Source: Rubellimicrobium roseum (GTDB lineage Bacteria; Pseudomonadota; Alphaproteobacteria; Rhodobacterales; Rhodobacteraceae). Taken from it: 64,000 bases of DNA. The DNA is taken from positions 1 through 64,000 of the forward strand of contig NZ_VDFV01000009.1 of the NCBI RefSeq assembly GCF_006152145.1, given 5' to 3'. The translations under genes were made by a program, and so were the position numbers. Each line of letters opens with the position of its first letter. The first letter of the stretch is position 1. Positions 14,570 through 43,711 of this stretch are shown here, one piece after another. Under the pieces are notes generated by a model. It saw only the letters and a program-made list of their open reading frames with translations, had not been told where the DNA came from and did not search any database.

Positions 14570-14579
14570 GATTGCTCCC

Positions 14580-14861
14580 ATGCTGATTCCGCACCCCCTC
14601 CTCGGCCCGCGCGACGCGCAGGAGTTCACCTATCTCGGCGACGCCGCGCTGATCGACCGGCCCGACGGGCTGACCGAGCCCGAGAAGTTCCACGACTACG
14701 CCTATCTGCGCGACAACCCCGCCGGGGTGCACAAGGAGCTGTGGTTCCACGAGCAGGGCGACCGGTCCTGGCTGGTGGTCACGCGCAACACGGTCACGCA
14801 CGAGATTCTGGGGGCGGTGCTCGCCCGCGACACCGCCCGCGGGCGGGGGAGGTCCAAGTGA
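14580..14861 (+). CDS. mgdB: N-methylglutamate dehydrogenase subunit B (SoxD-like)
   Basis: A 93-residue small subunit of the dehydrogenase complex, equivalent to sarcosine oxidase delta. SoxD subunits begin with a CPxCG zinc site. This protein begins MLIPHPLLGPRDAQEFTYLG and contains no cysteine at all, so it cannot bind zinc in the SoxD way. This is consistent with the MgdB branch. It has no separate catalytic role; in SoxD the subunit is structural. Start ATG 14580 lies 10 bases after mgdA. The stop overlaps the GTG start of mgdC by four bases (GTGA), showing translational coupling. Confidence 0.88.
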   Translation: MLIPHPLLGPRDAQEFTYLGDAALIDRPDGLTEPEKFHDYAYLRDNPAGVHKELWFHEQGDRSWLVVTRNTVTHEILGAVLARDTARGRGRSK

Positions 14862-17800
14862 CGGAAGTTCTTCGCGACACGAGCGGAGTCCTCACGGGGC
14901 AGGACGCGGCGCCCGTCCTGGCCTCCCAGCCGATGCGGGTGACGGGCGGCCTTGTAGACCGCTCCCGGTCGGTGCGCTTTACCTTTGACGGCAAGTCCTA
15001 CACGGGCCATCCGGGGGACACGCTGGCCTCGGCGCTGCTTGCCAGTGGCGTGAAACTGATGGGCCGGTCCTTCAAGTACCACCGGCCGCGCGGCGTGCTG
15101 TCGGCGGGCTCCGAGGAGCCCAACGCGCTCGTGGAGCTGCGCTCGGGCGCGCGCCGGGAGCCGAACACGCGGGCTACAGTGGCGGAACTGTACGACGGGC
15201 TGGAGGCGAGCAGCCAGAACCACTGGCCGACCCTAGCCTTCGACGCGATGGCGGTGAACGACTGGCTGTCGCCGTTCTTCACGGCGGGCTTCTATTACAA
15301 GACCTTCATGTGGCCGGCGGCCTTCTGGGAGAAGCTCTACGAGCCGATCATCCGCCGCGCGGCGGGGCTCGGAACTCTCTCGCGCGAGCCCGATCCGGAT
15401 GCCTACGACAAGGGCTTCCTGCACTGCGACGTGCTGGTGATCGGCGCGGGGCCTGCGGGCCTCATGGCGGCGCTCACGGCGGCGCGCGCGGGCGCGCGGG
15501 TCATCCTCGCGGACGAGGATTTCGCGCTGGGCGGGCGGCTGATTGCGGAGACGCACGAGGTCGGCGGGCAGTCGGGCGCGGGCTGGGCAACCTCGGCGGT
15601 CGCGGAGTTGGCGGGGATGCCGAACGTCCGCGTCATGCCGCGCACGACCATCATGGGCGTCTTCGACCACGGCGTCTATTCGGCGGTCGAGAGGGTGTCG
15701 GACCACTTCGCGGCCCCTCTCGCCGGGAAGCCCCGGCAGGTTCTGTGGCGGGTTTACGCGAAGCGCGCGATCCTCGCGGCGGGTGCCCTGGAGCGGCCCA
15801 TCGCCTTTGCGGACAACGACCGGCCCGGCGTGATGATGGCGGGGGCGGTGCGCGCCTATCTCAACCGCTGGGGCGTGGCGGCCGGCAAGCGGGTCGCTCT
15901 CTTCGTCAACAACGACGACGGGATGCGCACGGCGCGCGACCTGATGGCTCGGGGCGTCGAGGTCGTCGCTGTGGTGGACCCCCGGCGCGACATCCGGCGC
16001 CAGGCCGGCCTCCCGCACATGCTGGGGGTGGTCACGGGGACCACGGGGCGGCTGGGCCTCACCGGCATCAACGTGCGCCGCATCGACGGGCGCGAGGAGC
16101 ACGTCGTCTGCGACGCCCTCGCGGTGTCGGGGGGCTGGAACCCCACGGTCGCGCTGACCGCGCACCAGTCGGCGCGGCCCGTCTGGGACGAGAAGATTTC
16201 CGCCTTCCTCGCCTCGCCAAACGCTCCCGCCGGGCTGATCCCGGTCGGTGCGGCGGCGGGGGCGTTCTCCACCCATGGGGCGCTGGCCTCGGGTGCCGCC
16301 AAGGCCGCCGAGGCGGTCGAGGCGCTGGGCTTCCGCGCGCCCGCGGCCGATCTCCCTCAGGCCGAGGACGCGCCCGTGCGGATCGCGCCCTTCTGGCACG
16401 TACCGGGGAAGGGGCGCGCCTGGGTGGACTTCCAGAACGACGTGACCGTCAAGGACGTGAAGCTCGCCCATCAGGAGAACTTCCGCTCGGTCGAGCACCT
16501 GAAGCGCTACACCACGCTCGGGATGGCGACGGACCAGGGCAAGACCTCGAACGTCCTCGGCCTCGCCGTCATGGCGGAGCTGACGGGGCAGAGCATCCCC
16601 GAGACGGGCACGACCATGTTCCGCCCGCCCTACACGCCCGTCGCCATGGGCGTCCTGGCCGGTCGGTCGCGCGGGGAGGAGTTCAAGCCGACGCGCCTCA
16701 CCCCCTCGCACAAGTGGGCCGAGGAGCGGGGCGCGGTCTTCGTCGAGGTGGGGATGTGGCTGCGGGCCCAGTGGTTTCCGCGCCCCGGCGAGACGACCTG
16801 GCGCGAGTCCGTGGACCGCGAGGTGCTGGCCACCCGCAAGGCCGTGGGCGTCTGCGACGTGACCACGCTGGGCAAGATCGACATCCAGGGGACGGATGCG
16901 GGGCTTTTCCTCGACCGGGTCTACGCCAACACGTTCTCGACGCTCCCCGTGGGCAAGGTCCGCTACGGGCTGATGCTGCGCGAAGACGGGATCGTCATGG
17001 ATGACGGCACCACCGCGCGGATGGGCGAGCATGAATACGTAATGACCACCACCACGGCCAATGCCGTGCCGGTGTTCCGGCACCTCGAGTTCTGCCGCCA
17101 GTGCCTCTGGCCCGACCTCGACGTGCAGCTCATCTCCACGACCGAGGCCTGGGCGCAGTTCTCGGTCGCGGGGCCGAACGCGCGGGCGCTGCTTTCGCGC
17201 ATCGTCGATCAGGACATCTCGGACGCGGCCTTCCCCTACATGGCCTGCGGCAACGTCACGGTCTGCGGCGGGCTGCGGGCGCGGCTGTTCCGGATCAGTT
17301 TCTCGGGCGAGATGGCCTACGAGATCGCAGTGCCGACGCGCTACGGCGACGCGTTGGTGCGCGAGCTGATGGCGCAGGGGCAGGACCTGGGCGTGACGCC
17401 CTACGGGACCGAGGCGCTGGGCGTCCTGCGGGTCGAGAAGGGCCATGTCGCGGGCAACGAGCTCAACGGCCAGACCACGGCGCTGAACATGGGCCTGGGC
17501 AAGATGGTGTCGAAGAAGAAGGACAGCATCGGCATGGTCCTCTCGCAGCGCGAGGAGCTGGTGCGCGAGGACGGGCTGCGGCTCGTGGGCATCAAGCCGG
17601 TGGACCCGGCCGCCCAGCTCAAGGCGGGAAGCCACTTCATCGCCTTGGGCAAGGACCCGGTGGCCGCGAACGACGACGGCTGGATCACGTCTCTCGTCCA
17701 TTCGCCGCATCTAAGGCACCAGATTGCGCTCGGGTATCTGAAGAACGGCGCGGCGCGGATGGGGGAGCGGCTGCGGGCCGTAAACCTGCTCGCGAAGACC

Positions 17801-17866
17801 GAGGTGGAGGTCGAGATCGTGTCGCCGCACTTCATCGATCCGCAAGGGGAGCGCCTCCGTGGCTGA
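14858..17866 (+). CDS. mgdC: N-methylglutamate dehydrogenase subunit C (SoxA-like)
   Basis: A 1002-residue large subunit like sarcosine oxidase alpha. Order of parts: an N-terminal segment VRFTFDGKSYTGHPGDTLAS with GRSFKYHRPRGV (Fer2-like fold without iron ligands, as in SoxA); an NAD-binding core starting LVIGAGPAGLMAALTAARAG (about residue 190); and a C-terminal GcvT-like domain from about 590, containing SFSGEMAYEIAVP and PYGTEALGVLRVEKGH, which binds tetrahydrofolate and takes up the methyl carbon. The GTG start at 14858 is chosen because it overlaps the mgdB stop (GTGA) and follows GGGGGAGG. An in-frame ATG at 14741 lies inside mgdB and is not used. It overlaps mgdD by 8 bases. Confidence 0.92.
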   Translation: MTEVLRDTSGVLTGQDAAPVLASQPMRVTGGLVDRSRSVRFTFDGKSYTGHPGDTLASALLASGVKLMGRSFKYHRPRGVLSAGSEEPNALVELRSGARREPNTRATVAELYDGLEASSQNHWPTLAFDAMAVNDWLSPFFTAGFYYKTFMWPAAFWEKLYEPIIRRAAGLGTLSREPDPDAYDKGFLHCDVLVIGAGPAGLMAALTAARAGARVILADEDFALGGRLIAETHEVGGQSGAGWATSAVAELAGMPNVRVMPRTTIMGVFDHGVYSAVERVSDHFAAPLAGKPRQVLWRVYAKRAILAAGALERPIAFADNDRPGVMMAGAVRAYLNRWGVAAGKRVALFVNNDDGMRTARDLMARGVEVVAVVDPRRDIRRQAGLPHMLGVVTGTTGRLGLTGINVRRIDGREEHVVCDALAVSGGWNPTVALTAHQSARPVWDEKISAFLASPNAPAGLIPVGAAAGAFSTHGALASGAAKAAEAVEALGFRAPAADLPQAEDAPVRIAPFWHVPGKGRAWVDFQNDVTVKDVKLAHQENFRSVEHLKRYTTLGMATDQGKTSNVLGLAVMAELTGQSIPETGTTMFRPPYTPVAMGVLAGRSRGEEFKPTRLTPSHKWAEERGAVFVEVGMWLRAQWFPRPGETTWRESVDREVLATRKAVGVCDVTTLGKIDIQGTDAGLFLDRVYANTFSTLPVGKVRYGLMLREDGIVMDDGTTARMGEHEYVMTTTTANAVPVFRHLEFCRQCLWPDLDVQLISTTEAWAQFSVAGPNARALLSRIVDQDISDAAFPYMACGNVTVCGGLRARLFRISFSGEMAYEIAVPTRYGDALVRELMAQGQDLGVTPYGTEALGVLRVEKGHVAGNELNGQTTALNMGLGKMVSKKKDSIGMVLSQREELVREDGLRLVGIKPVDPAAQLKAGSHFIALGKDPVAANDDGWITSLVHSPHLRHQIALGYLKNGAARMGERLRAVNLLAKTEVEVEIVSPHFIDPQGERLRG

Positions 17867-18422
17867 GCATCGCCTGACACCTCTCGCCCCTCTGGGCCAT
17901 GCGGAGCCCATTGAGGAGCGCATCGGACCCGTCCTGATCGCGGAGCGGACCGACGTGGCCATGGCCTCGGTCGCGACGCGCCGGGGGTGGGAGACGGAGC
18001 TGGCCGCCCGCGCCGCGCAGGCAGGCCTGCCGCTGCCCCCGCCGGGGCAGGCGGCCGAGAACGCGCCCTGGGGGTCGTTCTGGCTCGGACCCGAGATGTG
18101 GATGGTCGAGGCGCCCTATGCCACGCACGAGGACGTGGCGGCGCAGGTGAAGCCCGCGCTGGGCGAGGCGGCCTCGGTGACCGAGCAGACCGACGCCTGG
18201 GTGCGATTCGAGGTCGCCGGGCCGCTGAAGCCGCTGTTCGAGCGGCTCTGCAACATCGACCTCGACCGCTTCGCGCCGGGATCGGCCACGCGCACGCTCA
18301 TGGAGCATCTGGGGGTCTACGTGATCCGGCGGGCCGAGGATCGGATGACGGTGCTGGGCCCGCGCTCCTCGGCGGGCTCGCTCCACCACGCGATCACGGT
18401 CGCGGCGCGCAGCGCGTTCTAG
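17859..18422 (+). CDS. mgdD: N-methylglutamate dehydrogenase subunit D (SoxG-like)
   Basis: A 187-residue subunit like sarcosine oxidase gamma, with a truncated GcvT-like fold: MVEAPYATHEDVAAQVKPAL, then TEQTDAWVRFEVAGPLKPLF and TRTLMEHLGVYVIRRAEDR. In the sarcosine oxidase family this subunit completes the folate-binding side of the complex. It starts with GTG inside the end of mgdC (8-base overlap), behind AGGGGAG. It is the last gene of the mgd operon. The gene beyond is convergent; no clear terminator hairpin is visible in the 82 bases between them. Confidence 0.88.
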   Translation: MAEHRLTPLAPLGHAEPIEERIGPVLIAERTDVAMASVATRRGWETELAARAAQAGLPLPPPGQAAENAPWGSFWLGPEMWMVEAPYATHEDVAAQVKPALGEAASVTEQTDAWVRFEVAGPLKPLFERLCNIDLDRFAPGSATRTLMEHLGVYVIRRAEDRMTVLGPRSSAGSLHHAITVAARSAF

Positions 18423-18504: not shown

Positions 18505-19578
18505 TCACCCCAGCGCCGCCGGAGGCACGCTGCCCGCCAGCCCCCTGAGCCCCGCAAGCCGGCGGCGCTCGTCGGCGGGGTGGACGCCAAAGGCCTCCGC
18601 ATAATGGCGAGCAAAGTCGGTGGAGGTGGAATAACCCACCGATCGGGCGATCTCGGTCACCGTGTCGGTGGAGTAGAGCACGCGCTGGCGCCCGCGCTCG
18701 AGACGCATGCGGCGATAGTAGCGCAAGGGAGTCTCCCCGATTGCGGCTTTGAAGGCGCGCTCGAGCGTACGCTCGGACAGGCCCAGTTCCCGCGCGACAT
18801 CGGCAATGGCAAGCGGGTCCTCGATGTGCGAGGCCATGAGCCTCAGCGCCTCGCGCAGTGGGCGGGGCAACATGGCTTCGGTTCCGCCCGCACTTGCGAC
18901 TGGTGTGGCCTGTGGCGCGTTCTCGTCGCGCACGAAGGGATGCTGGAACCAGCAGGCCACCTCGGTCATCAGCGCCCGCCCGCCCCGTTCCTCGATGACG
19001 CGGAGCATGAGGTCGAAGACCGCCCCCGCGCCCGAGACGGTGATGCGGCCCGCGGCCCGCTCGATGGCGGCGCGCGAGGTGGCGGCGTCCGGGAACTCGC
19101 CTGCCCAAGCGGCCTCGTAGCACCAGTGGACGGAGGGTCGATGCGCGCCCATGGCCTGTGCCCGCATGAGCGGGAAGACCCCGCCCGAGAAGCCGCCCAG
19201 GGTCACGCCATGACGCGCAAGGAGCCGCAGGGCCGCGCCCCCTCGACGCGGGTCGGCGAAGCGCGCGTCGGGTGGAGACAGGCAGATCAGGGCGTCGAGC
19301 CGCGCCGGGACCTCGGCCGCCTGCGCGAGCGTAAGGTCCGCGTCGAACCGCACGGCGGCCGAGGAGCGTACCGGGCCGGGCTTCTCCCCGACGAGCGTCC
19401 AGGCGAAGTCCGGCCGGCCGGTGATCTCGTTGGCGGCGCGCAGGGGCTCGACGGCCGAGGTCAGGCAGGCCATGGGGAAGCCCGGGAACAGCAGGAACCC
19501 CCAGGAGCGCAGGGCGGTTTCAGTTGATCGGCCGGTTTGGGTTTGAGTGGCGACATGTTTCACGGTAGGAAACACCAT
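18505..19578 (-). CDS. GlxA-family AraC-type transcriptional regulator
   Basis: A 357-residue activator of the GlxA/GbdR/CdhR kind. The N-terminal DJ-1/PfpI-like domain reads LRSWGFLLFPGFPMACLTSA and DALICLSPPDARFA. In place of a catalytic Cys nucleophile it has GGFSGGVFPLM, so it is a sensing domain. The C-terminal AraC domain has two HTHs: PLAIADVARELGLSERTLER and VTEIARSVGYSTSTDFARHY. Relatives control glycine betaine, carnitine, dimethylglycine and sarcosine use. It lies between mgdD (convergent) and an XRE-cupin regulator (divergent, 23 bases apart), so activation of mgd/mgs genes in response to methylated amines is a reasonable guess. Confidence 0.88.
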   Translation of the reverse strand: MVFPTVKHVATQTQTGRSTETALRSWGFLLFPGFPMACLTSAVEPLRAANEITGRPDFAWTLVGEKPGPVRSSAAVRFDADLTLAQAAEVPARLDALICLSPPDARFADPRRGGAALRLLARHGVTLGGFSGGVFPLMRAQAMGAHRPSVHWCYEAAWAGEFPDAATSRAAIERAAGRITVSGAGAVFDLMLRVIEERGGRALMTEVACWFQHPFVRDENAPQATPVASAGGTEAMLPRPLREALRLMASHIEDPLAIADVARELGLSERTLERAFKAAIGETPLRYYRRMRLERGRQRVLYSTDTVTEIARSVGYSTSTDFARHYAEAFGVHPADERRRLAGLRGLAGSVPPAALG

Positions 19579-19601: not shown

Positions 19602-20303
19602 ATGCCTGAAGATTTCGACGGGACCGAGGACGCCGTCCGCGCCGCGCACAGCGGAGCGCCCTCGCCCGACCGGCCCAGGGGCAAGCCCGCCTTCAGCCAG
19701 GACCCCCACCGGGTGCGGGATCTCGCGGAGCGCAACCTGGAGACGGCGATCGGGCGCGAGGTGCGGGCCTTTCGCCGCGCACAGGGAATGACCGTGGCGG
19801 ATCTCGCGCAGGCGACGGGGCTGTCCATCGGCATGCTGTCCAAGATCGAGAACGGGATGACCTCGCCCTCGCTCGCGACGCTGCAGGCGCTGGCGCACGC
19901 CTTCTCGGCCCCGATCACCGCCTTCTTCCGGGGTTACGAGGAGAAGCGGGAAGTCCAGCACGTCAAGGCAGGCGAGCATCTGGAGATCGAGCGGCGCGGC
20001 ACGCGGGCGGGGCACCAGTATCACCTTCTGGGGCATATCGGGGCCAATGCCTCGGGCGTGGTGGTGGAGCCTTACGTCATCACGCTCACCGAGGAATCGG
20101 ACGTCTTCCCGACGTTCCAGCATGACGGGATCGAGCTTCTCTACATGCTGGAAGGCGAGGTTACCTACCGGCACGGGGACCAGCTCTTCCATCTGCGCCC
20201 CGGGGACTCGCTCCTCTTCGACGCGGACGCGCGGCACGGGCCCGAGGTGCTCAACAGGCTGCCTGCCCGTTACCTGTCGGTCATCTCGTACCCGCAGCCC
20301 TGA
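19602..20303 (+). CDS. XRE-family regulator with C-terminal cupin
   Basis: A 233-residue regulator with a lambda-repressor-type HTH (REVRAFRRAQGMTVADLAQ, then SIGMLSKIENGMTSPSLATL; residues about 50-90) and a C-terminal cupin sensor (about 160-230; FQHDGIELLYMLEGEVTYRH, HLRPGDSLLFDADARHGPE). The cupin histidines may bind a metal or small ligand. Proteins of this layout often control amino acid or amine use. It is divergent from the GlxA-type regulator with only 23 bases between starts, so the two probably share and contest one promoter region. The 3' end overlaps by 23 bases the convergent small membrane protein gene. Confidence 0.88.
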   Translation: MPEDFDGTEDAVRAAHSGAPSPDRPRGKPAFSQDPHRVRDLAERNLETAIGREVRAFRRAQGMTVADLAQATGLSIGMLSKIENGMTSPSLATLQALAHAFSAPITAFFRGYEEKREVQHVKAGEHLEIERRGTRAGHQYHLLGHIGANASGVVVEPYVITLTEESDVFPTFQHDGIELLYMLEGEVTYRHGDQLFHLRPGDSLLFDADARHGPEVLNRLPARYLSVISYPQP

Positions 20304-20547
20304 TCGTCCCGGTCCGGAGGCGCGCCACGCGATAGGCGTCCAGAACGGCCATCAGATGGACGAAGATCCCGCCCGCGAGACGTCCCACCCAGGACACCCC
20401 GGGGTCGGCGGTGACGAAGGTGAAGGTCCCGAGCAGCAGCGCGAAGAAGGCGAAGATCAGCCCCCGCACGGGTTGGCGGTTCAGGACTTGGCCCATGCCC
20501 GGGAGCACGAGCGCGACAACGAGGACGAGGTGAGGCGACAGGGGCAT
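20281..20547 (-). CDS. Small integral membrane protein
   Basis: An 88-residue protein with two or three hydrophobic helices (HLVLVVALVLPGMGQVLN; GLIFAFFALLLGTFTFVT; GGIFVHLMAVLDAYRVAR). The GMGQ...RG opening resembles small membrane proteins of TM2-like type, but no function is recognised. Its start is adjacent to the stop of the gene upstream on the same strand, and its end overlaps the XRE-cupin gene. It is the last gene of the permease-containing minus-strand group. Confidence 0.65.
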   Translation of the reverse strand: MPLSPHLVLVVALVLPGMGQVLNRQPVRGLIFAFFALLLGTFTFVTADPGVSWVGRLAGGIFVHLMAVLDAYRVARLRTGTIRAAGTR

Positions 20548-21230
20548 CAGGCGCTGAGACGTTCCGGTTGGGGCGCGAGAGCCGCGCGGAAATCGAGGAG
20601 TGCTTCAAGGAGCGGCGCGAGTTCGGAGGGGTCAAACGGGGTCGCCCCCATCTCGGCGTCGCGGAAGACGAGATAGCGGGTGCGCGGCGCCTCCTCCGCC
20701 AGCCAGGTGAGGCGGAGGCCCTTGGGCGAGAGGATCACCTCCTTCAAGCGGTCCTCGCCCAGGCGGGCGACGACCTCGGCCAGCAGCCCGGGCGGCGTGC
20801 CTTCGGCGGCGTCGGTGCGGACCGCGCTGTCGGCGGGCAGGTCTGGTACAGGCGCAAGCTGGCGTGGCAGGCGGTCGAAGGCCGAGAAGGTCTCTCCCCC
20901 GCGCGGACGCAGCATCAGATGCCAGGTCCAGGCCAGCGGCATCGGCTCGGGCAGCGTGACGAGCAGCCAGAGCGCCGGGAGTTTTCGGGTGGCGAGCGTG
21001 TCGGGCACTACCCGCACCTCGAACGGCGCACCGCCCCGGAACCCGGTAACGCGCGGAAAGCCGTAGGGCTCCAGACGCGCGGCCGGCGAGGCCAGCAGGG
21101 GAAGAACCGCGTCCAGGTACCCGGCTCGCATGGCTCGCCGGACGGCGGCGGCACGGGACAGGCGCCGGGCCTGCCAGACCAGGAGCAGCCCCAAAGCAAG
21201 GAGCGCGAGGAGGACGCGAGGCTCGGCCAT
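20547..21230 (-). CDS. Membrane-anchored protein of unknown function
   Basis: A 227-residue protein starting MAEPRVLLALLALGLLLVWQ, a single N-terminal anchor, followed by an apparently soluble domain (GFPRVTGFRGGAPFEVRVVP, LAEVVARLGEDRLKEVILSP, RTRYLVFRDAEMGATPFDPS). The soluble part looks like a mixed alpha/beta domain. I do not recognise the family. The ATG at 21230 is chosen because it opens the hydrophobic helix; the frame is open farther upstream but that part is antisense to the permease end. It is separated from the permease by a UUCG-capped hairpin, so it may be transcribed at a reduced level relative to it. Confidence 0.6.
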   Translation of the reverse strand: MAEPRVLLALLALGLLLVWQARRLSRAAAVRRAMRAGYLDAVLPLLASPAARLEPYGFPRVTGFRGGAPFEVRVVPDTLATRKLPALWLLVTLPEPMPLAWTWHLMLRPRGGETFSAFDRLPRQLAPVPDLPADSAVRTDAAEGTPPGLLAEVVARLGEDRLKEVILSPKGLRLTWLAEEAPRTRYLVFRDAEMGATPFDPSELAPLLEALLDFRAALAPQPERLSA

Positions 21231-21252
21231 GTCAGTCTCCGGCACGGGTGGA

Positions 21253-21272
21253 CGGGCCCCCGAAGGGGCCCG
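21253..21272 (-). terminator. UUCG-tetraloop hairpin after the permease gene
   Basis: Three bases after the permease stop (reading the minus strand) is CGGGCCCC-TTCG-GGGGCCCG, a perfect 8-bp GC stem with the extra-stable C(UUCG)G loop. No U tract follows, so it may act as a transcript 3'-end stabiliser or a partial attenuator before the two downstream genes rather than as a full terminator. Confidence 0.6.
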
Positions 21273-21274
21273 CC

Positions 21275-22687
21275 TCAGTAGCCCTGCGGCTTGGGCCAGG
21301 GCATCGTGAACTGGTCGGCGCGCTTTACGTATCGGTAGCGGCGCAGGTGGAACCAGAGCGAGGCCACGATGTAGAACACCACCATCGCGATGAGCTGGGT
21401 GCCGTAACCCAGGAACACCGCGAAGAAGGTCACCGCGCAGAGCAGGATCAGCACGATCGCTGGGACCGGGTGCATCGGGTGGACGTAGCCCCGCTTGATC
21501 GAGCCCAGCGGCCACTTGCGGCGGAACATGATCATGTTGAAGGGCATGAAGGTATAGCCCAGCAGCCCCGAGAGGATCGAGAAGGTCACCACCTGATCGA
21601 GCGGCGCCCCCAGCGCGAAGACGAGTGCGATGGGTACGAGGAAGATGATCGAGCGGTAGGGCGTCCGGTAGACCGGGTGCACCGCGCCGAACCACGCGGG
21701 CAGGTAATGGTCGCGGCCCATGGAGAACCAGGCGCGGCTCGCGTCGTTGATGCAGCCGTTGGCGGAGGCGAGGGTCGCGAAGAGCGTCCCCACGCCGAGC
21801 AGCACGAGGAGCGCCGTCGAGCCCGTCATCCGCGCCGCGTCGAAGAGCGGCACGCCCGACTGGCCCAGATACTCCCAGGGCATGAGGCCCACGCAGACGT
21901 ACCAGGTGAGCGTCGCCGCGATCACCAGCGTCATGATCCCCGCGAGCGTCCCGAAAGGCAGCGAGCGGGCGGGCGAGCGCACCTCCTCGGCCGCTTGGCA
22001 GGTGCCCTCGATGCCGAGATAGTACCAGAGGCCGAAATGCATGGCCGCGAGCACGCCGAGCCAGCCATAGGGCAGGTCGGTCATAAGCTCCGCGTGACGC
22101 AACGGCGTAGCGTCGGACCAGGGCGCGGTGCCGAGGAAGAGGATCAGGATCGCCACGAAGGCCACGGCGGTGATGACGAGGCTGAAGTTCAGCGTCGCGA
22201 GCACGCCCCGGTAGTTGAGCCAGGCGAGGAAGAGGATGGAGAGCACGATGAAAGGCTGCGGGTTCAGCCCCTCGTGCCCGGCCATGGCGGCCACCGTCTC
22301 CATCAGGAAGCCGACGGTCAGGGCGTTCGCTGCCTCGAGCATCGTGTAGGCGAAGACAAGGTAGAGGCCCACGTTGAAGGCCATGAGCGGCCCGACGATG
22401 TGCTTGGCCTGCGTGTACTGGCCCCCGGCCGCGGCGACCGTCGAGGTCACCTCGGAGTCGATCATGGCCACGCAGGAGTAGAGGAGCCCCGCGAACCAGC
22501 AGGCGATGAGCGCGGCGTAGGCCCCGCCCTTCCCCACCGCGAAGTTCCAGCCCATGTACTCGCCCACGAGGACGATGCCCACGCCCAGCGCCCAGACATG
22601 GGCGGGGCCGAGGACGCGGACGAGGCCAACCTTGGTGGCGTGCACCATTCCGTCCGCGACGGGAGAGGCGATGTCGGTCTGCGCCAT
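21275..22687 (-). CDS. APC-superfamily amino acid/amine permease
   Basis: A 470-residue transporter with about 12 helices. The first helices read VWALGVGIVLVGEYMGWNFA and AALIACWFAGLLYSCVAMID, and later LTWYVCVGLMPWEYLG and IIFLVPIALVFALGAPLDQV. The GEYMGWN and TVAAAGGQYTQA segments fit the APC family (ethanolamine/amino acid permease type). Lying between mgdABCD and mgsABC-gmaS, it is a candidate importer of methylamine or an N-methylated amino acid; this is inference. The start ATG at 22687 abuts the stop of the upstream 54-residue protein. Three tiny membrane proteins precede it in the same operon, an unusual partner set for a permease that normally works alone. Confidence 0.85.
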   Translation of the reverse strand: MAQTDIASPVADGMVHATKVGLVRVLGPAHVWALGVGIVLVGEYMGWNFAVGKGGAYAALIACWFAGLLYSCVAMIDSEVTSTVAAAGGQYTQAKHIVGPLMAFNVGLYLVFAYTMLEAANALTVGFLMETVAAMAGHEGLNPQPFIVLSILFLAWLNYRGVLATLNFSLVITAVAFVAILILFLGTAPWSDATPLRHAELMTDLPYGWLGVLAAMHFGLWYYLGIEGTCQAAEEVRSPARSLPFGTLAGIMTLVIAATLTWYVCVGLMPWEYLGQSGVPLFDAARMTGSTALLVLLGVGTLFATLASANGCINDASRAWFSMGRDHYLPAWFGAVHPVYRTPYRSIIFLVPIALVFALGAPLDQVVTFSILSGLLGYTFMPFNMIMFRRKWPLGSIKRGYVHPMHPVPAIVLILLCAVTFFAVFLGYGTQLIAMVVFYIVASLWFHLRRYRYVKRADQFTMPWPKPQGY

Positions 22688-22851
22688 CAGCGGTGCTCCT
22701 CGGTGAGGGCCTCGATCTCGCCCTCGCGCGAGGAGGTCAGGACGTCCTCGTCGTAGGTCGAGTCGATGCGGATCCAGTCGGCGATGATGAGGACGGCGAA
22801 GAGCGCCGAGAGCGCCCAAGCCGCGACTTCCAGGAAAGTCCAGACATCCAT
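22687..22851 (-). CDS. Tiny single-pass membrane protein (permease operon)
   Basis: A 54-residue protein starting MDVWTFLEVAAWALSALFAV with one transmembrane helix and a charged tail STYDEDVLTSSREGEIEALT. The ATG at 22851 has GGGAG eight bases before it; a GTG three codons upstream overlaps the previous stop but is less well placed. It shares its boundary with the permease start. It looks like an accessory subunit or a regulator of the permease; no family is recognised. Confidence 0.6.
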   Translation of the reverse strand: MDVWTFLEVAAWALSALFAVLIIADWIRIDSTYDEDVLTSSREGEIEALTEEHR

Positions 22852-22856
22852 GGCGC

Positions 22857-23237
22857 TCACTCCCGTCCGAACTTCTCGGCGATGACTTCGCGGTACTCGC
22901 GATCGCTCAGGCGGAACATCAGGACGAAGTAGCCGACGACCACGACGACCATCACGATGAGGCTCAGCGCGCCGAACGAATAGTCGAAGCGCGAGGTGAT
23001 GATGTCCTGCGCCGCCGTCGGGTCGGCGTAGCCGAGCGCGTTCCATCGTTCGACCATCGCCTCGTTCTGGCCGAGGCTTTCCCAGGTCGGGTTCTCCTGC
23101 GGGCTGGGCGAGGCGGTGCGGCCGGCGAGGCCCATGTAGAGCGGCAGGTAGAGCGCGCCGAAGGTGAGCGCGAGAAGGACGATCACGTCCACGATCTGTC
23201 CGAGTTTCGACTGCGCGGGGGGGCGGTAGCGGGCCAT
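22857..23237 (-). CDS. Two-helix membrane protein (permease operon)
   Basis: A 126-residue protein with a helix at each end (IVDVIVLLALTFGALYLPLY at about 15-34; GALSLIVMVVVVVGYFVLMF at about 89-108). Between them is a presumably extracytoplasmic segment of about 50 residues, NPTWESLGQNEAMVERWNAL and DPTAAQDIITSRFDYS. The gene lies 3 bases after one small membrane protein gene and 5 before the next. No family is recognised. The conserved-looking loop could touch a substrate or the permease. Confidence 0.65.
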   Translation of the reverse strand: MARYRPPAQSKLGQIVDVIVLLALTFGALYLPLYMGLAGRTASPSPQENPTWESLGQNEAMVERWNALGYADPTAAQDIITSRFDYSFGALSLIVMVVVVVGYFVLMFRLSDREYREVIAEKFGRE

Positions 23238-23240
23238 GGC

Positions 23241-23528
23241 TCAGCCCCTCCCGCTGCGGAGGGCGTCGAGGAACTTGAGGTCGAGCCCGTAGATGAAGTC
23301 GCGGTCCTCGCGGTAATGGGCGAGCATGGCGATGATCGCGGCGGTGTTGAAGACCAGCACCGCCACGCCGCCGACCAGCAGCAGGGTCCGCGCGGTCGCG
23401 CTGGGCGCGATATCCCAGGTCGCCCAGAGCACGAAGAGGATGGCGAACCAGAGGCCCAGCACGAAGGCCCAGGCGGCGGCGGTGTCGCGTCGATGCATGG
23501 ATGGGATGCGGGAGTCCGTTGACGGCAA
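23241..23528 (-). CDS. Two-helix membrane protein, first gene of permease operon
   Basis: A 95-residue protein with helices AAWAFVLGLWFAILFVLWAT and ARTLLLVGGVAVLVFNTAAI, then a cytoplasmic end HYREDRDFIYGLDLKFLDAL. The TTG at 23528 is chosen because AGGAGGAGG stands just before it; the first in-frame ATG (23498) has no ribosome site and would remove ten residues. It opens the six-gene minus-strand group that includes the permease, and is divergent from mgsA with about 260 bases between. Function unknown. Confidence 0.6.
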   Translation of the reverse strand: MPSTDSRIPSMHRRDTAAAWAFVLGLWFAILFVLWATWDIAPSATARTLLLVGGVAVLVFNTAAIIAMLAHYREDRDFIYGLDLKFLDALRSGRG

Positions 23529-23787
23529 GGGTGAGTCCTCCTCCTGTTGGTGCGACCGGATCGTGCCGGTCAACTTTTTTTCCTTTGAGGAGAAGCCGGG
23601 GCTGCCCGTCTGTCAAGCAGAGACCATGGCTCGCTGCCCTGTCTTTAGGCGATCCGCAAAGGCCCGGAACGCGGACGAGGCCCAAGGCTCGGCACCCTTG
23701 CCCCAAGGTGAAAAAAGTTTCATCTAGGTTGAGCGACGGAAAACCCGGTGCTAGGCTGGCCCCGACGATGCAAAGGAGATCGTGACC

Positions 23788-24684
23788 ATGTGCGGGATCG
23801 TGGGCCTGTTCCTGAAGGACCCCAAGCTCGAGCCGCATCTCGGCGAGATGCTGGCCGACATGCTCATCACCATGACCGACCGCGGCCCGGACAGCGCCGG
23901 GATCGCGGTCTATGGCCGCCCCCGGAAGGGCCGCGCCAAGCTGACCGTGCAGTCCGCGAACCCGGGCGCCGACTTTGACGGCCTCGACCGCGATCTCAAG
24001 AAGGAGATCGGCGGCAAGGTCGGGATCGAGGTCAAGGACACCCATGCGGTGCTCGAGGTCGACGAGGACCGGCTCGAGGTCGCGCGCGATGTCGTGCGGA
24101 CCCTCCGCCCCGGCCTCAAGCTCATGAGCGCGGGCGAGGGGATCGAGATCTACAAGGAGGTGGGCCTGCCCAAGGACGTGGCCGCCCGCTTCGAGATCGC
24201 GCGCATGTCCGGCACCCACGGCATCGGCCACACCCGGATGGCGACCGAGTCGGCGGTGACGACCATGGGCGCCCACCCCTTCTCCACCGGCCCGGACCAG
24301 TGCCTCGTGCACAACGGGTCGCTGTCGAACCACAACGCCGTGCGACGGACGCTGAAGCGCGCCGGCATGACCTTCGAGACCGAGAACGACACCGAGGTCG
24401 CGGCCGCCTACTTGAGCCACAAGATCGCGGACGGCGCGGGACTCGGGCAGGCGATGGAGGGAACGCTCCAGGACCTCGACGGCTTCTTCACCTTCGTGGT
24501 GGGCACCAGGAACGGCTTCGGCGTGGTGCGCGACCCCATCGCCTGCAAGCCCGCCGTGATGGCCGAGACCGACCAGTACGTTGCCTTCGGATCGGAATAC
24601 CGTGCCATGGTCGGCCTGCCAGGGATCGAGACCGCCCGCGTCTGGGAGCCCGAGCCCGCCACCGTCTACTTCTGGGAACGCTGA
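23788..24684 (+). CDS. mgsA: N-methylglutamate synthase subunit A (amidotransferase-like)
   Basis: A 298-residue class-II glutamine-amidotransferase-type subunit (GlxB family). N-methylglutamate synthase swaps the methylamine of gamma-glutamylmethylamide or free methylamine onto the 2-oxoglutarate/glutamate skeleton with MgsB and MgsC. The mature protein begins with the nucleophile Cys2 (MCGIVGLFLKDP). Other motifs are TMTDRGPDSAGIAVYG, GIGHTRMATESAVTTMGAHP (substrate Arg) and CLVHNGSLSNHNAVRRTL. The ATG at 23788, not the GTG two codons earlier, is chosen because it places Cys at position 2 and has AAAGGAG nine bases before it. First gene of mgsABC-gmaS. Confidence 0.92.
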   Translation: MCGIVGLFLKDPKLEPHLGEMLADMLITMTDRGPDSAGIAVYGRPRKGRAKLTVQSANPGADFDGLDRDLKKEIGGKVGIEVKDTHAVLEVDEDRLEVARDVVRTLRPGLKLMSAGEGIEIYKEVGLPKDVAARFEIARMSGTHGIGHTRMATESAVTTMGAHPFSTGPDQCLVHNGSLSNHNAVRRTLKRAGMTFETENDTEVAAAYLSHKIADGAGLGQAMEGTLQDLDGFFTFVVGTRNGFGVVRDPIACKPAVMAETDQYVAFGSEYRAMVGLPGIETARVWEPEPATVYFWER

Positions 24685-24700
24685 GGGGCCCTGCCCCCTC
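24683..24700 (+). promoter_or_regulatory. Hairpin between mgsA and mgsB
   Basis: GAGGGG (24683-24688) and CCCCTC (24695-24700) can pair as a 6-bp stem overlapping the mgsA stop codon. It lacks a U tract; a minor mRNA-processing or attenuating role is possible. Confidence 0.3.
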
Positions 24701-24717
24701 ACCTTCAGGGACATGCG

Positions 24718-25458
24718 ATGCTGCACACCGCCACCGCCGAACTGACCGCCGCCGATCGCGAAGGGGTCAAGGTCTTCGACCTGACCGCCCATGGGCTGCG
24801 CGCGCTGAACCAGGCGCTGCACGACTTCCGGCGCAACCCGACGAACGAGACCGTCTGGGAGATCGTCAACACCAAGGGCGCCCACGCCATCGCCGTCGGC
24901 GTGGACGCCCCGCTCGACATCACCGTGCGGGGGACGACGGGTTACTACTGCGCCGGGATGAACAAGCAGGCCACGATCCGCATCGACGGCTCCGCGGGCC
25001 CAGGCACGGCCGAGAACATGATGTCCGGCACCGTCATCGTGGAAGGCGACGCCTCGCAATACGCCGGCGCCACCGGGCGCGGCGGGCTTCTCGTCATCAA
25101 GGGCAACGCTTCCTCGCGCTGCGGCATCTCCATGAAGGGGATCGACATCGTGGTGCATGGCAACATCGGCCACATGTCGGCCTTCATGGCGCAGTCGGGC
25201 AGCCTCGTGGTGCTGGGCGACGCGGGCGAGGCGCTGGGCGACTCGCTCTACGAGGCCAGGATCTACGTGCGCGGCCAGGTGAAATCCCTGGGCGCGGACT
25301 GCATCGAGAAGGAGATGCGGCCCGAGCACTACGAGCATCTCGAGGCGCTCCTGCGCCGGGGCCTCGCGGACGGGAAGGCCCGGCCGGAGGAGTTCCGCCG
25401 TTACGGCTCGGCCCGCAAGCTTTACACCTTCAACATCGACAACGCGTCGTCCTACTGA
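24718..25458 (+). CDS. mgsB: N-methylglutamate synthase subunit B (GXGXG domain)
   Basis: A 246-residue subunit corresponding to the GXGXG beta-helix domain of glutamate synthase (GlxC family). The repeats are visible: IDGSAGPGTAENMMSGTVIV, GRGGLLVIKGNASSRCGISM, DIVVHGNIGHMSAFMAQSGS and GDAGEALGDSLYEARIYVRG. In large-subunit glutamate synthase this domain is structural and lines the ammonia channel; here it is a stand-alone chain working with MgsA and MgsC. ATG 24718 has only a weak ribosome site. Nine bases separate its stop from the mgsC start. Confidence 0.92.
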   Translation: MLHTATAELTAADREGVKVFDLTAHGLRALNQALHDFRRNPTNETVWEIVNTKGAHAIAVGVDAPLDITVRGTTGYYCAGMNKQATIRIDGSAGPGTAENMMSGTVIVEGDASQYAGATGRGGLLVIKGNASSRCGISMKGIDIVVHGNIGHMSAFMAQSGSLVVLGDAGEALGDSLYEARIYVRGQVKSLGADCIEKEMRPEHYEHLEALLRRGLADGKARPEEFRRYGSARKLYTFNIDNASSY

Positions 25459-25467
25459 GGCCCGCCC

Positions 25468-26799
25468 GTGACCGAGTTCCCCCGCACCCCCCCGCGGCAA
25501 TCCTGGACCTTCTCGAACGACGCCAATGCCGAGATCCGGCGCGCGGCCGCCACCGGCATCTACGACATCCGCGGCGGCGGATCGAAGCGGAAGCTGCCGC
25601 ACTTCGACGACCTGCTGTTCCTCGGGGCCTCCATCTCGCGCTACCCGCTGGAAGGCTACCGCGAGAAATGCTCGACCGACGTCTGGCTCGGCACCCGCCA
25701 TGCCAAGAAGCCCATCCACCTCGACATCCCGATCACCATCGCTGGCATGAGCTTCGGCGCGCTCTCGGGCCCCGCCAAGGAGGCCCTGGGCCGTGGCGCG
25801 ACCGAGGCCGGCACCTCGACCACCACCGGCGACGGCGGCATGACCGAGGAGGAGCGCGGGCATTCCAAGACGCTGGTCTATCAGTACCTTCCCAGCCGCT
25901 ACGGCATGAACCCCGACGACCTGCGCCGCGCGGACGCCATCGAGGTCGTGGTGGGCCAGGGCGCCAAGCCCGGCGGAGGCGGGATGCTGCTGGGCCAGAA
26001 GATCAGCGACCGCGTGGCCGAGATGCGGAACCTCCCCAAGGGGATCGACCAGCGCTCGGCCTGCCGCCACCCCGACTGGACGGGGCCGGACGACCTGGAG
26101 ATCAAGATCCTCGAACTGCGCGAGATCACCGACTGGGAAAAGCCCATCTATGTGAAGGTCGGCGGCGCGCGGCCCTACTACGATACGGCCCTGGCGGTGA
26201 AGGCGGGGGCGGACGTGGTCGTGGTCGACGGGATGCAGGGCGGGACGGCGGCGACGCAGGACGTCTTCATCGAGCACGTCGGCATGCCGACGCTGGCCTG
26301 CATCCCGCAGGCGGTGAAGGCGCTGCAGGACCTCGGCATGCATCGCGAGGTGCAGCTCATCGTCTCGGGCGGGATCCGGTCGGGCGCGGACGTGGCCAAG
26401 GCGCTGGCGCTGGGCGCGGACGCGGTGGCCATCGGCTCGGCGGCGCTGGTGGCGCTGGGCGACAACGATCCCGTGTACGAAGAGGAATACCGCAAGCTCG
26501 GCACCACCGCCGGGGCCTATGACGACTGGCACGAGGGCAAGGACCCCGCCGGCATCACCACGCAGGACCCGGAGCTTTTCGGGCGCTTCGACCCGGTGCT
26601 CGGGGGCCGGCGACTCAAGAACTACCTCAAGGTGATGACGCTCGAGGCGCAGACCATCGCGCGCGCCTGCGGCAAGAGCCACGTGCACAATCTCGAGCCC
26701 GAGGATCTTTGCGCGCTCACGATCGAGGCGGCGGCGATGGCGGGCGTGCCGCTCGCGGGGACGAGCTGGATCCCCGGACGCTCGGGCGGGCCGTTCTGA
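25468..26799 (+). CDS. mgsC: N-methylglutamate synthase subunit C (FMN glutamate synthase-like)
   Basis: A 443-residue FMN-binding, glutamate-synthase-like catalytic subunit (GlxD family). A TIM-barrel synthase site is seen from about residue 90: IPITIAGMSFGALSGPAKEA, TSTTTGDGGMTEEERGH, then GQGAKPGGGGMLLGQKISDR. The phosphate-binding end of the barrel reads QLIVSGGIRSGADVAKALAL and GADAVAIGSAALVALG. It forms N-methylglutamate from 2-oxoglutarate and the methylamine unit delivered by the other subunits. It starts with GTG nine bases after mgsB. It is followed by a strong hairpin, then gmaS. Confidence 0.93.
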   Translation: MTEFPRTPPRQSWTFSNDANAEIRRAAATGIYDIRGGGSKRKLPHFDDLLFLGASISRYPLEGYREKCSTDVWLGTRHAKKPIHLDIPITIAGMSFGALSGPAKEALGRGATEAGTSTTTGDGGMTEEERGHSKTLVYQYLPSRYGMNPDDLRRADAIEVVVGQGAKPGGGGMLLGQKISDRVAEMRNLPKGIDQRSACRHPDWTGPDDLEIKILELREITDWEKPIYVKVGGARPYYDTALAVKAGADVVVVDGMQGGTAATQDVFIEHVGMPTLACIPQAVKALQDLGMHREVQLIVSGGIRSGADVAKALALGADAVAIGSAALVALGDNDPVYEEEYRKLGTTAGAYDDWHEGKDPAGITTQDPELFGRFDPVLGGRRLKNYLKVMTLEAQTIARACGKSHVHNLEPEDLCALTIEAAAMAGVPLAGTSWIPGRSGGPF

Positions 26800-26817
26800 T
26801 GTAAGCTCTTTGGCGGA

Positions 26818-26837
26818 GCCCCGGGACGAACCGGGGC
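26818..26837 (+). promoter_or_regulatory. Stable hairpin between mgsC and gmaS
   Basis: GCCCCGG-GACGAA-CCGGGGC forms a perfect 7-bp GC stem (26818-26824 with 26831-26837) 19 bases after the mgsC stop. No U tract follows and gmaS begins 28 bases later, so it may tune read-through or protect the mgs message rather than stop transcription. Confidence 0.45.
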
Positions 26838-26865
26838 CCGCGACATGCGAAAGACAGGGAGTCCA

Positions 26866-28218
26866 ATGGTGTTTCAGGATTTGCATCGGGGCCCGTGGGA
26901 GGCCCAAGCCCAAGTCCACGACCTCGCCGAGTTCGCGCGGGCGAATGGCGTCAAGTACTTCATGATCTCCTACACGGACCTGTTCGGGGGCCAGCGCGCC
27001 AAGCTCGTGCCCGCGCAGGCGATCTCGGACATGGCGGTGGAAGGGGCGGGCTTCGCGGGCTTCGCGACCTGGCTGGACCTCACGCCGGCGCATGCCGACC
27101 TCATGGCGATCCCCGACCCCTCCTCGGTCATCCAGCTGCCCTGGAAGCCCGAGGTGGCCTGGGTCGCGGCGACCGCGACCATGGAGGGCGCCCTGGTCGA
27201 GCAGGCCCCCCGCAACGTCCTGCGACGCCTGATCCACGAGGCCGCCAAGGAGGGCCTGCGCGTCAAGACGGGCGTGGAGCCCGAGTTCTTCATCCTCACG
27301 GCCGACGGCAAGCAGTGCTCGGACCCGCTCGATACAGCGGTGAAGCCCTGCTACGACCAGCAGGCGGTGATGCGGCGCTATGACGTCATCGCCGAGGTCT
27401 GCGACTACATGCTGAGCCTCGGCTGGGAGGCCTACCAGAACGACCACGAGGACGCGATCGGCCAGTTCGAGATGAACTGGAAGTACGACGACGTCCTGCG
27501 CACGGCCGACAAGCACAGCTTCTTCAAGTTCATGATGAAGAGCATCGCCGAGAAGCACGGGCTGCGCGCGACCTTCATGCCCAAGCCGTTCCAGGGCCTC
27601 ACCGGCTCGGGCTGCCATGCCCATATCTCGGTCTGGGACCTCGACGGCCGGAAGAACGCCTTCGCGGACGACGGCAAGGAGCTGGGGCTGTCGGACCAGG
27701 GGCGGCACTTCCTGGGCGGCATCATGAAGCACGCCTCGGCGTTGGCGGCGATCACCAACCCGACGGTGAACAGCTACAAGCGCATCAACGCGCCGCGCAC
27801 GACCTCGGGCGCGACCTGGGCGCCGAACACCGTGACCTGGACCGGCAACAACCGCACGCACATGGTGCGCGTGCCGGGGCCGGGACGGTTCGAGCTGCGC
27901 CTGCCCGACGGGGCGGCGAACCCCTACCTGATGCAGGCGGTGATCCTGGCCGCGGGCCTTGATGGCGTGCGGACCAAGGCCGATCCGGGGCCGCGCCACG
28001 ACATCGACATGTACGCCCACGGCTACAAGGTGAAGAACGCGCCGAAGCTGCCCCTGAACCTTCTCGACGCGCTGCGCGCCTACGAGAAGGACAAGACGCT
28101 CTGCTCCATGATGGGCGAGGAGTTCAGCAAGGCCTACGTGAAGCTCAAGACCGACGAGTGGAACGCCTACTGCGCCCATTTCTCGGAGTGGGAGCGGCAG
28201 AACACGATCGACATCTGA
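26866..28218 (+). CDS. gmaS: Gamma-glutamylmethylamide synthetase (type III GS-like)
   Basis: A 450-residue glutamine-synthetase-fold enzyme (GlnT/GmaS branch) that joins methylamine to glutamate with ATP, the first step of the N-methylglutamate pathway. Visible features are KYFMISYTDLFGGQRAKLVP near the N-terminus, LRVKTGVEPEFFILTADGK with metal-binding glutamates, the catalytic block FMPKPFQGLTGSGCHAHISV, then PTVNSYKRINAPRTTSGATW and a C-terminal RFELRLPDGAANPYL. ATG 26866 is chosen because AGGGAG stands just before it; an ATG seven codons upstream is the alternative. Assignment as GmaS rather than a glutamine synthetase comes from length, branch-like motifs and linkage with mgs and mgd. 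Biochemical proof of methylamine use is not in the sequence. Confidence 0.92.
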   Translation: MVFQDLHRGPWEAQAQVHDLAEFARANGVKYFMISYTDLFGGQRAKLVPAQAISDMAVEGAGFAGFATWLDLTPAHADLMAIPDPSSVIQLPWKPEVAWVAATATMEGALVEQAPRNVLRRLIHEAAKEGLRVKTGVEPEFFILTADGKQCSDPLDTAVKPCYDQQAVMRRYDVIAEVCDYMLSLGWEAYQNDHEDAIGQFEMNWKYDDVLRTADKHSFFKFMMKSIAEKHGLRATFMPKPFQGLTGSGCHAHISVWDLDGRKNAFADDGKELGLSDQGRHFLGGIMKHASALAAITNPTVNSYKRINAPRTTSGATWAPNTVTWTGNNRTHMVRVPGPGRFELRLPDGAANPYLMQAVILAAGLDGVRTKADPGPRHDIDMYAHGYKVKNAPKLPLNLLDALRAYEKDKTLCSMMGEEFSKAYVKLKTDEWNAYCAHFSEWERQNTIDI

Positions 28219-28723
28219 CACGCCGGGACCGGTCCCTGCCGCCCGCGACCGGCCCGCCGGGGCGCGGCTCGCGGGGATGCCCCGACCCGGACAGCGCGGT
28301 CGCGAAGCGCCGGCAGAAGGGGCGGCGGAGGTCCCCTGAGGGGCGGTCTGGGTCACGGAGCGGTCTCCTGGGGCGGTTCGTCCTCGCCACTGTGCCCCCC
28401 GAGGGTTAACGAAACCTGACAGCACCGCGCGGTGGTGGGGCGTTCGGCGCAACACCCCCGCGCTGGCCGGAAGCCGGCGCCGCGATTGGTCCTCTGCGCA
28501 GGCGGATCACCGGTCCGGAGACCGCCCGGCGAGGCCGCCGGAGGCCTTGGCGAGCGCCCGTCGCGGGCGGGAAAGGGGTTCGTTCCGGCGCCCGCCCGCC
28601 GCCGCGGATCGCGCCTGCGATTGTCAAGGCCGGCCAGCCGACCTAGGAGCACCTCCGAGAGCCCGGAACCGGCCGCCTCGTCGGCGGCCCTGCGGGACGG
28701 CGGATCGCCAAGGAGGACCATCC
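28219..28723. other. Intergenic region after gmaS
   Basis: About 500 bases of very GC-rich DNA without a recognised gene. It contains the perfect 12-bp palindrome GGGACCGGTCCC (28225-28236) seven bases after the gmaS stop, which may be part of a transcript end, and near its right end the ribosome site AAGGAGG of the next gene. No promoter could be named by eye. Confidence 0.45.
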
Positions 28724-43602: not shown

Positions 43603-43711
43603 CGGAAAGGCTGGGGGACCCGCCCAGCCCGGCGCCTGCCGCCGGGCGTTCGCCCCTGAAGCCCGTCCCCCCGGACGGTCTTCGGGGCGGGGCTCACCCC
43701 CAGACCCTAGC

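Follow-up and report, generated by a model that had tools for sequence, protein, structure and literature searches.

We analyzed a stretch of 64,000 nucleotides from Rubellimicrobium roseum (positions 1 to 64,000 of contig NZ_VDFV01000009.1, assembly GCF_006152145.1; hereafter the window), whose list of open reading frames (ORFs) holds, on the minus strand at 20281-23528, six closely packed membrane genes that we call A to F. The window is an N-methylglutamate (NMG) pathway locus in which gmaS (above the TIGR03105 cut-off), mgsABC, and mgdABCD are all present, and the six-gene cassette sits between mgdABCD (13319-18422, plus strand) and mgsABC–gmaS (23788-28218, plus strand). The Mgs, MgdA, and MgdB proteins match the annotated Sinorhizobium meliloti locus, and the arrangement agrees with that given in PMC4543880. 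The six genes are strictly linked, co-inherited, and tied to NMG genes, and our tentative reading is that they encode a dedicated methylamine importer.

An initial annotation, drawn from the letters alone, had described three small genes (95, 126, and 54 residues with two, two, and one helices) that precede an APC permease with gaps of 3-5 bases or abutting ends, with two further membrane genes behind it, the whole being placed between mgd and mgs. This anatomy holds: the coordinates (table 1) and the membrane segments, which were called by Kyte–Doolittle hydropathy with a threshold, agree with it, the junctions being a gap of 3 bases, a gap of 5 bases, and an overlap of one base. The two genes behind the permease D are E and F, and two regulator genes (AraC-type and PuuR-like) separate the cassette from mgd. 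In the loci of relatives, the median gaps are 2 bases for A–B, 9 for B–C, 4 for C–D, and 60 for D–E, and E and F overlap by 4 bases; the relatives of gene A begin near the matching place with ATG or GTG rather than TTG, the start rule used having penalized TTG.

Table 1. Positions of cassette genes, control elements, and neighboring genes in the window.
Feature	Position	Strand	Remarks
Gene A	23241-23528	-	95 amino acids; TTG start at 23528, stop ends at 23241; preceded by AGGAGGAGGA
Gene B	22857-23237	-	126 amino acids; 3-base gap to A
Gene C	22687-22851	-	54 amino acids; 5-base gap to B
Gene D	21275-22687	-	470 amino acids; APC permease; start overlaps the C stop by one base (TGATG)
Gene E	20547-21230	-	227 amino acids; N-terminal helix and soluble alpha/beta domain of unassigned fold
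Gene F	20281-20547	-	88 amino acids; three hydrophobic segments
Control region between A and mgsA	23529-23787	.	Divergent; motifs counted over 46 A/mgsA regions
TTGACA toward A	23609-23617		Plus-strand letters TCTGTCAAG; in the control region
GTTGA/TGCTAG toward mgsA	23728-23754		In the control region
AAA(A/T)nGTT element	23572-23581	-	In the control region
AAA(A/T)nGTT element	23711-23719	+	In the control region
mgsA	23788-24684	+	Homology to named S. meliloti and P. aminophilus counterparts
mgsB	24718-25458	+	Homology as for mgsA
mgsC	25468-26799	+	Homology as for mgsA
gmaS	26845-28218	+	TIGR03105, 664 bits (cut-off 470)
mgdA	13319-14569	+	Matches S. meliloti sarcosine-oxidase-type subunit beside mgs
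mgdB	14580-14861	+	As for mgdA
mgdC	14741-17866	+	Position and ORF only
mgdD	17859-18422	+	ORF; also matched at the mgd end of relatives' loci
PuuR-like regulator	19602-20303	+	Helix-turn-helix and cupin; HTH_3 and Cupin_2 above cut-off; PuuR model 56.7 bits, under 211
AraC/GlxA-type regulator	18505-19578	-	GbdR-like, next to mgd; NF052371 181 bits, under cut-off 480

Linkage and Co-inheritance of the Six Genes

Scanning genome contigs with D gave 404 places that encode a relative, of which the best 80 were kept (the D-retrieved loci). With A, B, and C counted where at least 1 kb lay upstream of D, and E and F where at least 1.3 kb lay downstream, the former were present in 76 of 76 and the latter in 77 of 77 of these loci. 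When all loci were taken (157 with D, 112 of them distinct), A, B, and C accompanied D in 107 of 107 cases and E and F in 105 of 105, counts that come with three reservations: 85 of the loci counted had also served to build the A–F profiles, the larger set includes loci fetched by B that contain it by construction, and kinship among the genomes means that the counts are not independent. Five control loci, three around ethanolamine permeases (eat) and two around other APC permeases, contained none of the five companion genes, and a chance neighborhood is rejected by these empty loci together with the linkage counts. Such strict gene linkage of carrier and small subunits is what a multi-subunit secondary transporter would show, and the conservation of the small genes beside the permease, on which the initial annotation hinged, extends to every distinct case with enough flanking DNA.

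The cassette occurs in Rhodobacterales, in Hyphomicrobiales, on a Paraburkholderia plasmid, and in a genome of another class. Among 244 genomes of the order, D (E<=1e-90) was found in nine and B in the same nine. On plasmids, a search with D gave 22 records at 68-83% identity, all 95 records outside this group being below 60% and the next rows listed below 31%, many of them called ethanolamine permease; a search with B likewise gave 22 records, of which the 20 listed are all among those of D and the other two are, by counts, from Paraburkholderia. The B profile was convincing in 6 of 385 genomes in the class and in 14 of 398 in the phylum (R. roseum being counted in both), including one, G938, that belongs to another class; weak matches in G065, G382, and G478 (E 0.002-0.009) were treated as chance. 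A diverged group (L126-L129), whose D and B are 65-67% and 37-41% identical to those of the window, has all six genes in the same order. Across 61 loci, the companions A, B, C, E, and F diverge in step with D (r of gene distances 0.80-0.88), and the partial correlation with D given mgsC is 0.60-0.73, versus 0.02-0.36 for mgsC given D. As an aside, the permease gene is split over two frames or interrupted by a stop in L134 (9727-11349), L050 (4995-6410), and L078 (3629-5092), which represent either assembly errors or decaying copies.

These distributions bear on the possibility that D needs no partner and that its five companions are co-regulated neighbors with jobs of their own, for example in membrane stress or enzyme anchoring. 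That the A–F proteins bind one another is something we infer, and conservation is lowest in E (mean distance 1.01), both of which leave room for such a possibility. However, no D lacks A–C in the 107 cases, no match to A, B, C, E, or F lies more than 3.5 kb from D in 1.69 Mb of locus DNA (from loci chosen around D or B), B occurs in the 244 genomes only where D does, and the companions are co-inherited with D; we regard a solitary D as unlikely.

Joining of the Cassette to N-Methylglutamate Genes

In 51 of the 80 D-retrieved loci, mgsA lies nearby, and for 26 of the other 29 an mgsA match is found elsewhere in the genome, which places 77 of the 80 in genomes with mgsA. Within the 244 genomes of the order, 81 have mgsA, including all nine with the cassette, an association with a hypergeometric P of 1.1e-4 when the own genome is left out and kinship is ignored. 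The cassette joins NMG genes in five arrangements: divergent from mgsA (the window and 45 of the 80 loci), on the same strand upstream of mgsABC–gmaS (L150, L151, L152, and L155-L157), on the same strand downstream of gmaS (L126-L129), convergent with gmaS in Sinorhizobium (L108 and L111), and upstream of mgdA, mgdB, and gmaS in G938, the genome of another class, whose NMG genes are only 32-44% identical to those of the window when its D is 66% identical. That the cassette has come to lie beside NMG genes repeatedly and in differing layouts argues for a function in common. The S. meliloti cassette also adjoins genes for DUF3445, a PDR/VanB oxidoreductase, and an aminomethyltransferase, which are presumably of the dimethylamine-oxidation type. 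On plasmid pAMI6 of Paracoccus aminophilus, the cassette adjoins mgsABC–gmaS; the paper on this plasmid reports mgs, gmaS, and mgd at this place but, in its available part, says nothing of the cassette (PMC4543880). In P. aminophilus JCM 7686, the cassette genes bear the locus tags JCM7686_RS21935, RS21940, RS24840, RS21950, RS21955, and RS21960, and this strain possesses another route for methylamine (mauA). On plasmid paAMD1 of Aminobacter niigataensis MD1, the cassette (O1Y97_RS25745 to RS25720) lies about 12 kb from the NMG genes, and for most methylamine genes of this plasmid a higher abundance was reported on dimethylamine and on metformin than on sucrose (PMC9699525).

The NMG genomes of the order that lack the cassette have more copies of Amt (mean 2.44, n=72) than those that have it (mean 1.56, n=9; one-sided P 0.005, kinship ignored), as if Amt did the job there, which fits Amt as an alternative entry. 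In this regard, the Amt encoded by the gmas-mgsABC-amt operon of Pseudomonas sp. C5pp was called a methylamine transporter (PMC8292978), and is, as D would be, a proposed methylamine entry for the NMG pathway; however, D is not of the Amt family, since it gave no match to Amt/Mep/Rh (PF00909), only two AA_permease families being hit at E<=1. One Amt was found in the genome of R. roseum, on another contig. In the diverged L126, an ORF at 12189-13646 that reads by eye like an ammonium transporter follows the cassette, so that a single NMG locus may contain both the cassette and an Amt.

Several APC proteins are exchangers, and D could in principle be an antiporter or exporter through which ammonium, glutamate, or excess methylamine leaves. 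The ammonium that the NMG pathway frees (PMC13390433) would give such an outlet something to carry. The lack of the cassette in 72 of the 81 NMG genomes and the higher Amt numbers of these genomes nevertheless fit a replacement in import better, and we consider an outward role decidedly unlikely.

The control region between A and mgsA was studied over a set of 46 such regions. Toward A, TTGACAGA is found in 45 of the 46 A/mgsA intergenic regions, and GTTGA...TGCTAG precedes mgsA in the regions compared. An AAA(A/T)nGTT element occurs in both halves of 24 of the 46 regions, versus a mean of 0.4 and a maximum of 2 in Markov controls, but this count is post hoc, since it was chosen after a first count by strand (44 and 7 regions, with both in 7, of 46), and part of the conservation is explained by descent because the compared regions are related. 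The PuuR-like gene is convergent with F, the 3' end of which it overlaps on the opposite strand, and its relatives are present in 32 of 85 loci. By analogy, the AraC/GlxA-type regulator may correspond to TmaR, to which a 2026 paper assigned the role of master regulator of the trimethylamine genes of Ruegeria pomeroyi (PMC13390433). Elsewhere in the window are a 509-amino-acid ORF after gmaS (28547-30076) that reads by eye like an NAD-binding/SAF-domain dehydrogenase, a FadH/OYE-type oxidoreductase gene (1756-3792; mycofactocin OYE_2 model 474.8 bits, cut-off 793), and urea ABC transporter genes (42274-45649; UrtA and UrtB models above their cut-offs).

The Permease and Its Companions

D belongs to the APC superfamily, with scores above the gathering thresholds of PF00324 (AA_permease, 100.6 bits vs. 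24.6) and PF13520 (AA_permease_2, 95.4 vs. 27.0). Its best NCBIfam model is the ethanolamine permease TIGR00908, but the score of 178.5 bits lies under the equivalog cut-off of 381.75, for which reason an ethanolamine permease proper is rejected. D shares with this group (TC 2.A.3.5) the APC fold family and a motif of transmembrane helix 6 (TM6), (I/V)EG...AAEE, that is common to three of three ethanolamine permeases and to neither of two other APC permeases, these motifs having been read off our own alignment. It differs from them in identity (26-31% in the listed eat rows) and in its surroundings, as A, B, C, E, and F are missing from the three eat control loci; two plasmid examples of ethanolamine permease adjoin a primary-amine oxidase. 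In TM1, D has a motif, G(E/D/Q)xxGW, that recurs in the three eat proteins and also, as G(E/D)xxGW, in both permeases annotated only as amino acid permease; its variable residue is glutamate in D and in one of the three eat proteins, and aspartate and glutamine in the other two eat proteins.

The nearest solved structure to D is GkApcT (6f34/5oqt, E 1.3e-18), the TM1 stretch IIGTGIF of which faces VL-VGEY in D in the HMMER alignment. In APC carriers, the G(S/T)G loop holds the carboxylate of the substrate, and its lack in D weakly hints at a plain amine as substrate. These observations are relevant to the possibility that the same multi-part carrier serves another substrate, be it gamma-glutamylmethylamide, N-methylglutamate, sarcosine, dimethylamine, or an ethanolamine-like amine. 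Both the best NCBIfam model of D and the presumed dimethylamine-oxidation neighbors in S. meliloti point in this direction; on the other side stand the constant partner of the cassette, which is the NMG pathway with methylamine as its entry substrate, and, as weak evidence, the amino acid-carrier loop that D has not kept. On balance, another substrate appears rather unlikely, if by no means negligible.

The small genes are real genes: spurious ORFs are rejected by reading frames kept in 103-105 loci (some of which are the same place twice) and by codon position 3 being the most variable in six of six comparisons. In the window, A, B, and C have two, two, and one membrane segments, and among relatives two segments are called for A in 85 of 103 proteins and for B in 82 of 104, and one for C in 64 of 105, the other 41 having none above the threshold. 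E has a single N-terminal segment followed by a soluble domain, and F has three segments. The two helices of B flank a loop of about 50 amino acids predicted to lie outside. The C-terminal tails, HYREDRDFxYGLDxKFLD in A (predicted cytosolic), EYREVIAEKFG in B, and one with an invariant SSREG in C, are the best conserved parts (0.87, 0.83, and 0.81, versus 0.65-0.79 for the helices), which, given their predicted cytosolic side, points to a binding of the inner face of D or of a cytosolic partner.

Such conserved tails would also suit a methylamine sensor (transceptor), or a scaffold by which GmaS and the NMG enzymes are kept at the membrane, in place of a bulk transporter. The APC stretches that D keeps in TM1 and TM6 argue against this, the tails may simply bind D, and we deem a sensor or scaffold most improbable.

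As for known families, A, B, C, and E of the window match no Pfam or NCBIfam family at cut-off, E having no Pfam match even at E<=1, and F weakly resembles DUF5683 (PF18935, 21.0 bits, under the cut-off of 26.7). Scanned one by one against Pfam, relatives of C and E gave hardly any matches, 24 of 28 A relatives weakly matched Rv2743c (best E 0.003; window A 11.3 bits vs. 27.7), and 9 of 38 B relatives weakly matched SP_C-Propep (best E 0.00055). Profile searches of the PDB with A, B, C, and E gave nothing useful, and C, with a 30-row profile, had no PDB match at E<=10, MgtS included. AlphaFold2 models of E (predicted local distance difference test, pLDDT, of 92.6) and B (a modest 77.8) had no Foldseek match in the PDB at E<=0.001, by which an explanation of E or B through a solved fold is rejected, with the modest quality of the B model to be borne in mind. 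A defense function is likewise rejected, the only PADLOC match being A to RTasSLATT at E 0.051.

Carriers with small partners are known from several systems. Sodium/solute symporters are LeuT-fold carriers with a short partner gene encoding DUF485 or DUF4212 subunits; they differ from the cassette in their carrier family, and DUF485 and DUF4212 had no Pfam match to A, B, or C of the window at E<=1 and were not among the families listed for 38 B, 28 A, and 30 C relatives. Closer to D is GkApcT, which was crystallized with MgtS, a one-helix protein packed on TM5 (Nat Commun 2018, PMC5803215), and which without MgtS takes up less substrate at similar initial rates (PMC5803215). Here, an APC carrier that is the nearest solved relative of D has a small one-helix membrane partner, but MgtS is a protein of the Escherichia coli expression host, whereas the cassette has three to five dedicated genes in an operon-like row; GkApcT may thus be a physical precedent for a small partner of D rather than a proof. 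The statement of the initial annotation that APC permeases normally work alone therefore has exceptions, to which can be added the LAT-type SLC7 carriers, which need a single-span SLC3 heavy chain (PMC5803215), a glycoprotein in their case.

What the Cassette May Do

In the reading that we favor, and whose chances we put slightly below even, the cassette is a dedicated multi-component methylamine importer for the NMG pathway that feeds GmaS. The six genes would form one inner-membrane system bringing methylamine, as methylammonium, into the cell, with D, a distant relative of ethanolamine permeases, as its carrier; A, B, and C, with five helices in total and C-terminal tails predicted to be cytosolic, would be obligate small subunits packed around D that fold, stabilize, or gate it, when E, with its membrane-anchored soluble domain, and F may serve assembly or control. 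GmaS would ligate the incoming methylamine to glutamate, by which the gradient would stay inward. Complex formation, the direction of transport, the substrate, the topology, and the roles of E and F are what we infer here from the anatomy, linkage, co-inheritance, and tie to NMG genes observed above. The control region common to the cassette and mgsA, the TM6 stretch that D shares with ethanolamine permeases, the Amt numbers, and the GkApcT–MgtS precedent also count in favor of this reading. The multi-part methylamine or N-methyl amino acid system proposed in the initial annotation is thereby kept in part: the link to methylamine is strong (77 of 80 loci), the unit comprises six genes rather than four, and methylamine is favored over N-methyl amino acids, mainly because the NMG pathway and GmaS are the constant partner, the motifs of D being weak evidence.

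Besides the reservations already made about the larger locus set and kinship, several observations weigh against this importer. The cassette is missing from 72 of the 81 NMG genomes of the order and is patchy even among close relatives, with B in 5 of 81 genomes (own and relatives) and in 3 of 8 of the own genus, so that it is not needed for the pathway. Three D-retrieved loci come from genomes without an mgsA match (L016, L030, and L047, all metagenome-assembled genomes), the mgsA match in the genome of L026 is limited to residues 1-156 of 298, 3.3 Mb separate D from mgsA in G246, and the cassette on a plasmid of Paracoccus sp. MA has no mgs gene within the 21 kb around it, this plasmid being the only replicon searched. 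The raw correlation of gene C with mgsA (0.86) is slightly above that with D (0.84), and the TM1 motif, being shared with two permeases annotated only as amino acid permease, does not single out amines.

A bolder version would make of A–D, together with E and F, a novel type of APC carrier, an obligate hetero-oligomer in which transport and ligation are coupled: GmaS would dock on the E domain and on the conserved cytosolic tails of the three small subunits, and methylamine would be passed from carrier to ligase at the membrane without ever being free in the cytosol. We grant this only a slim chance.

Among the papers listed by our searches of an open-access library, none was seen to describe the cassette or to name a methylamine permease other than Amt for NMG bacteria. 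The abstract of a study on Methyloversatilis universalis speaks of induced amino acid permeases whose genes are not named, and these were not found in the available part of its table (PMC5023235); a 2019 paper called the mode of methylamine uptake unclear, this being for pelagic Methylophilaceae without the NMG pathway (PMC6794327).

NMG bacteria need methylamine inside the cell, and Amt is the only entry proposed in the literature examined (PMC8292978). The cassette offers a concrete and testable set of genes in tractable strains, such as Paracoccus aminophilus, Aminobacter niigataensis, and Sinorhizobium. Should A–C prove to be genuine subunits, a bacterial APC carrier would have partners dedicated to it and encoded in its own operon, a simple system in which to ask why certain SLC7 carriers depend on partners. 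The favored reading, if true, would also assign a first function to no fewer than four protein families, those of A, B, C, and E.

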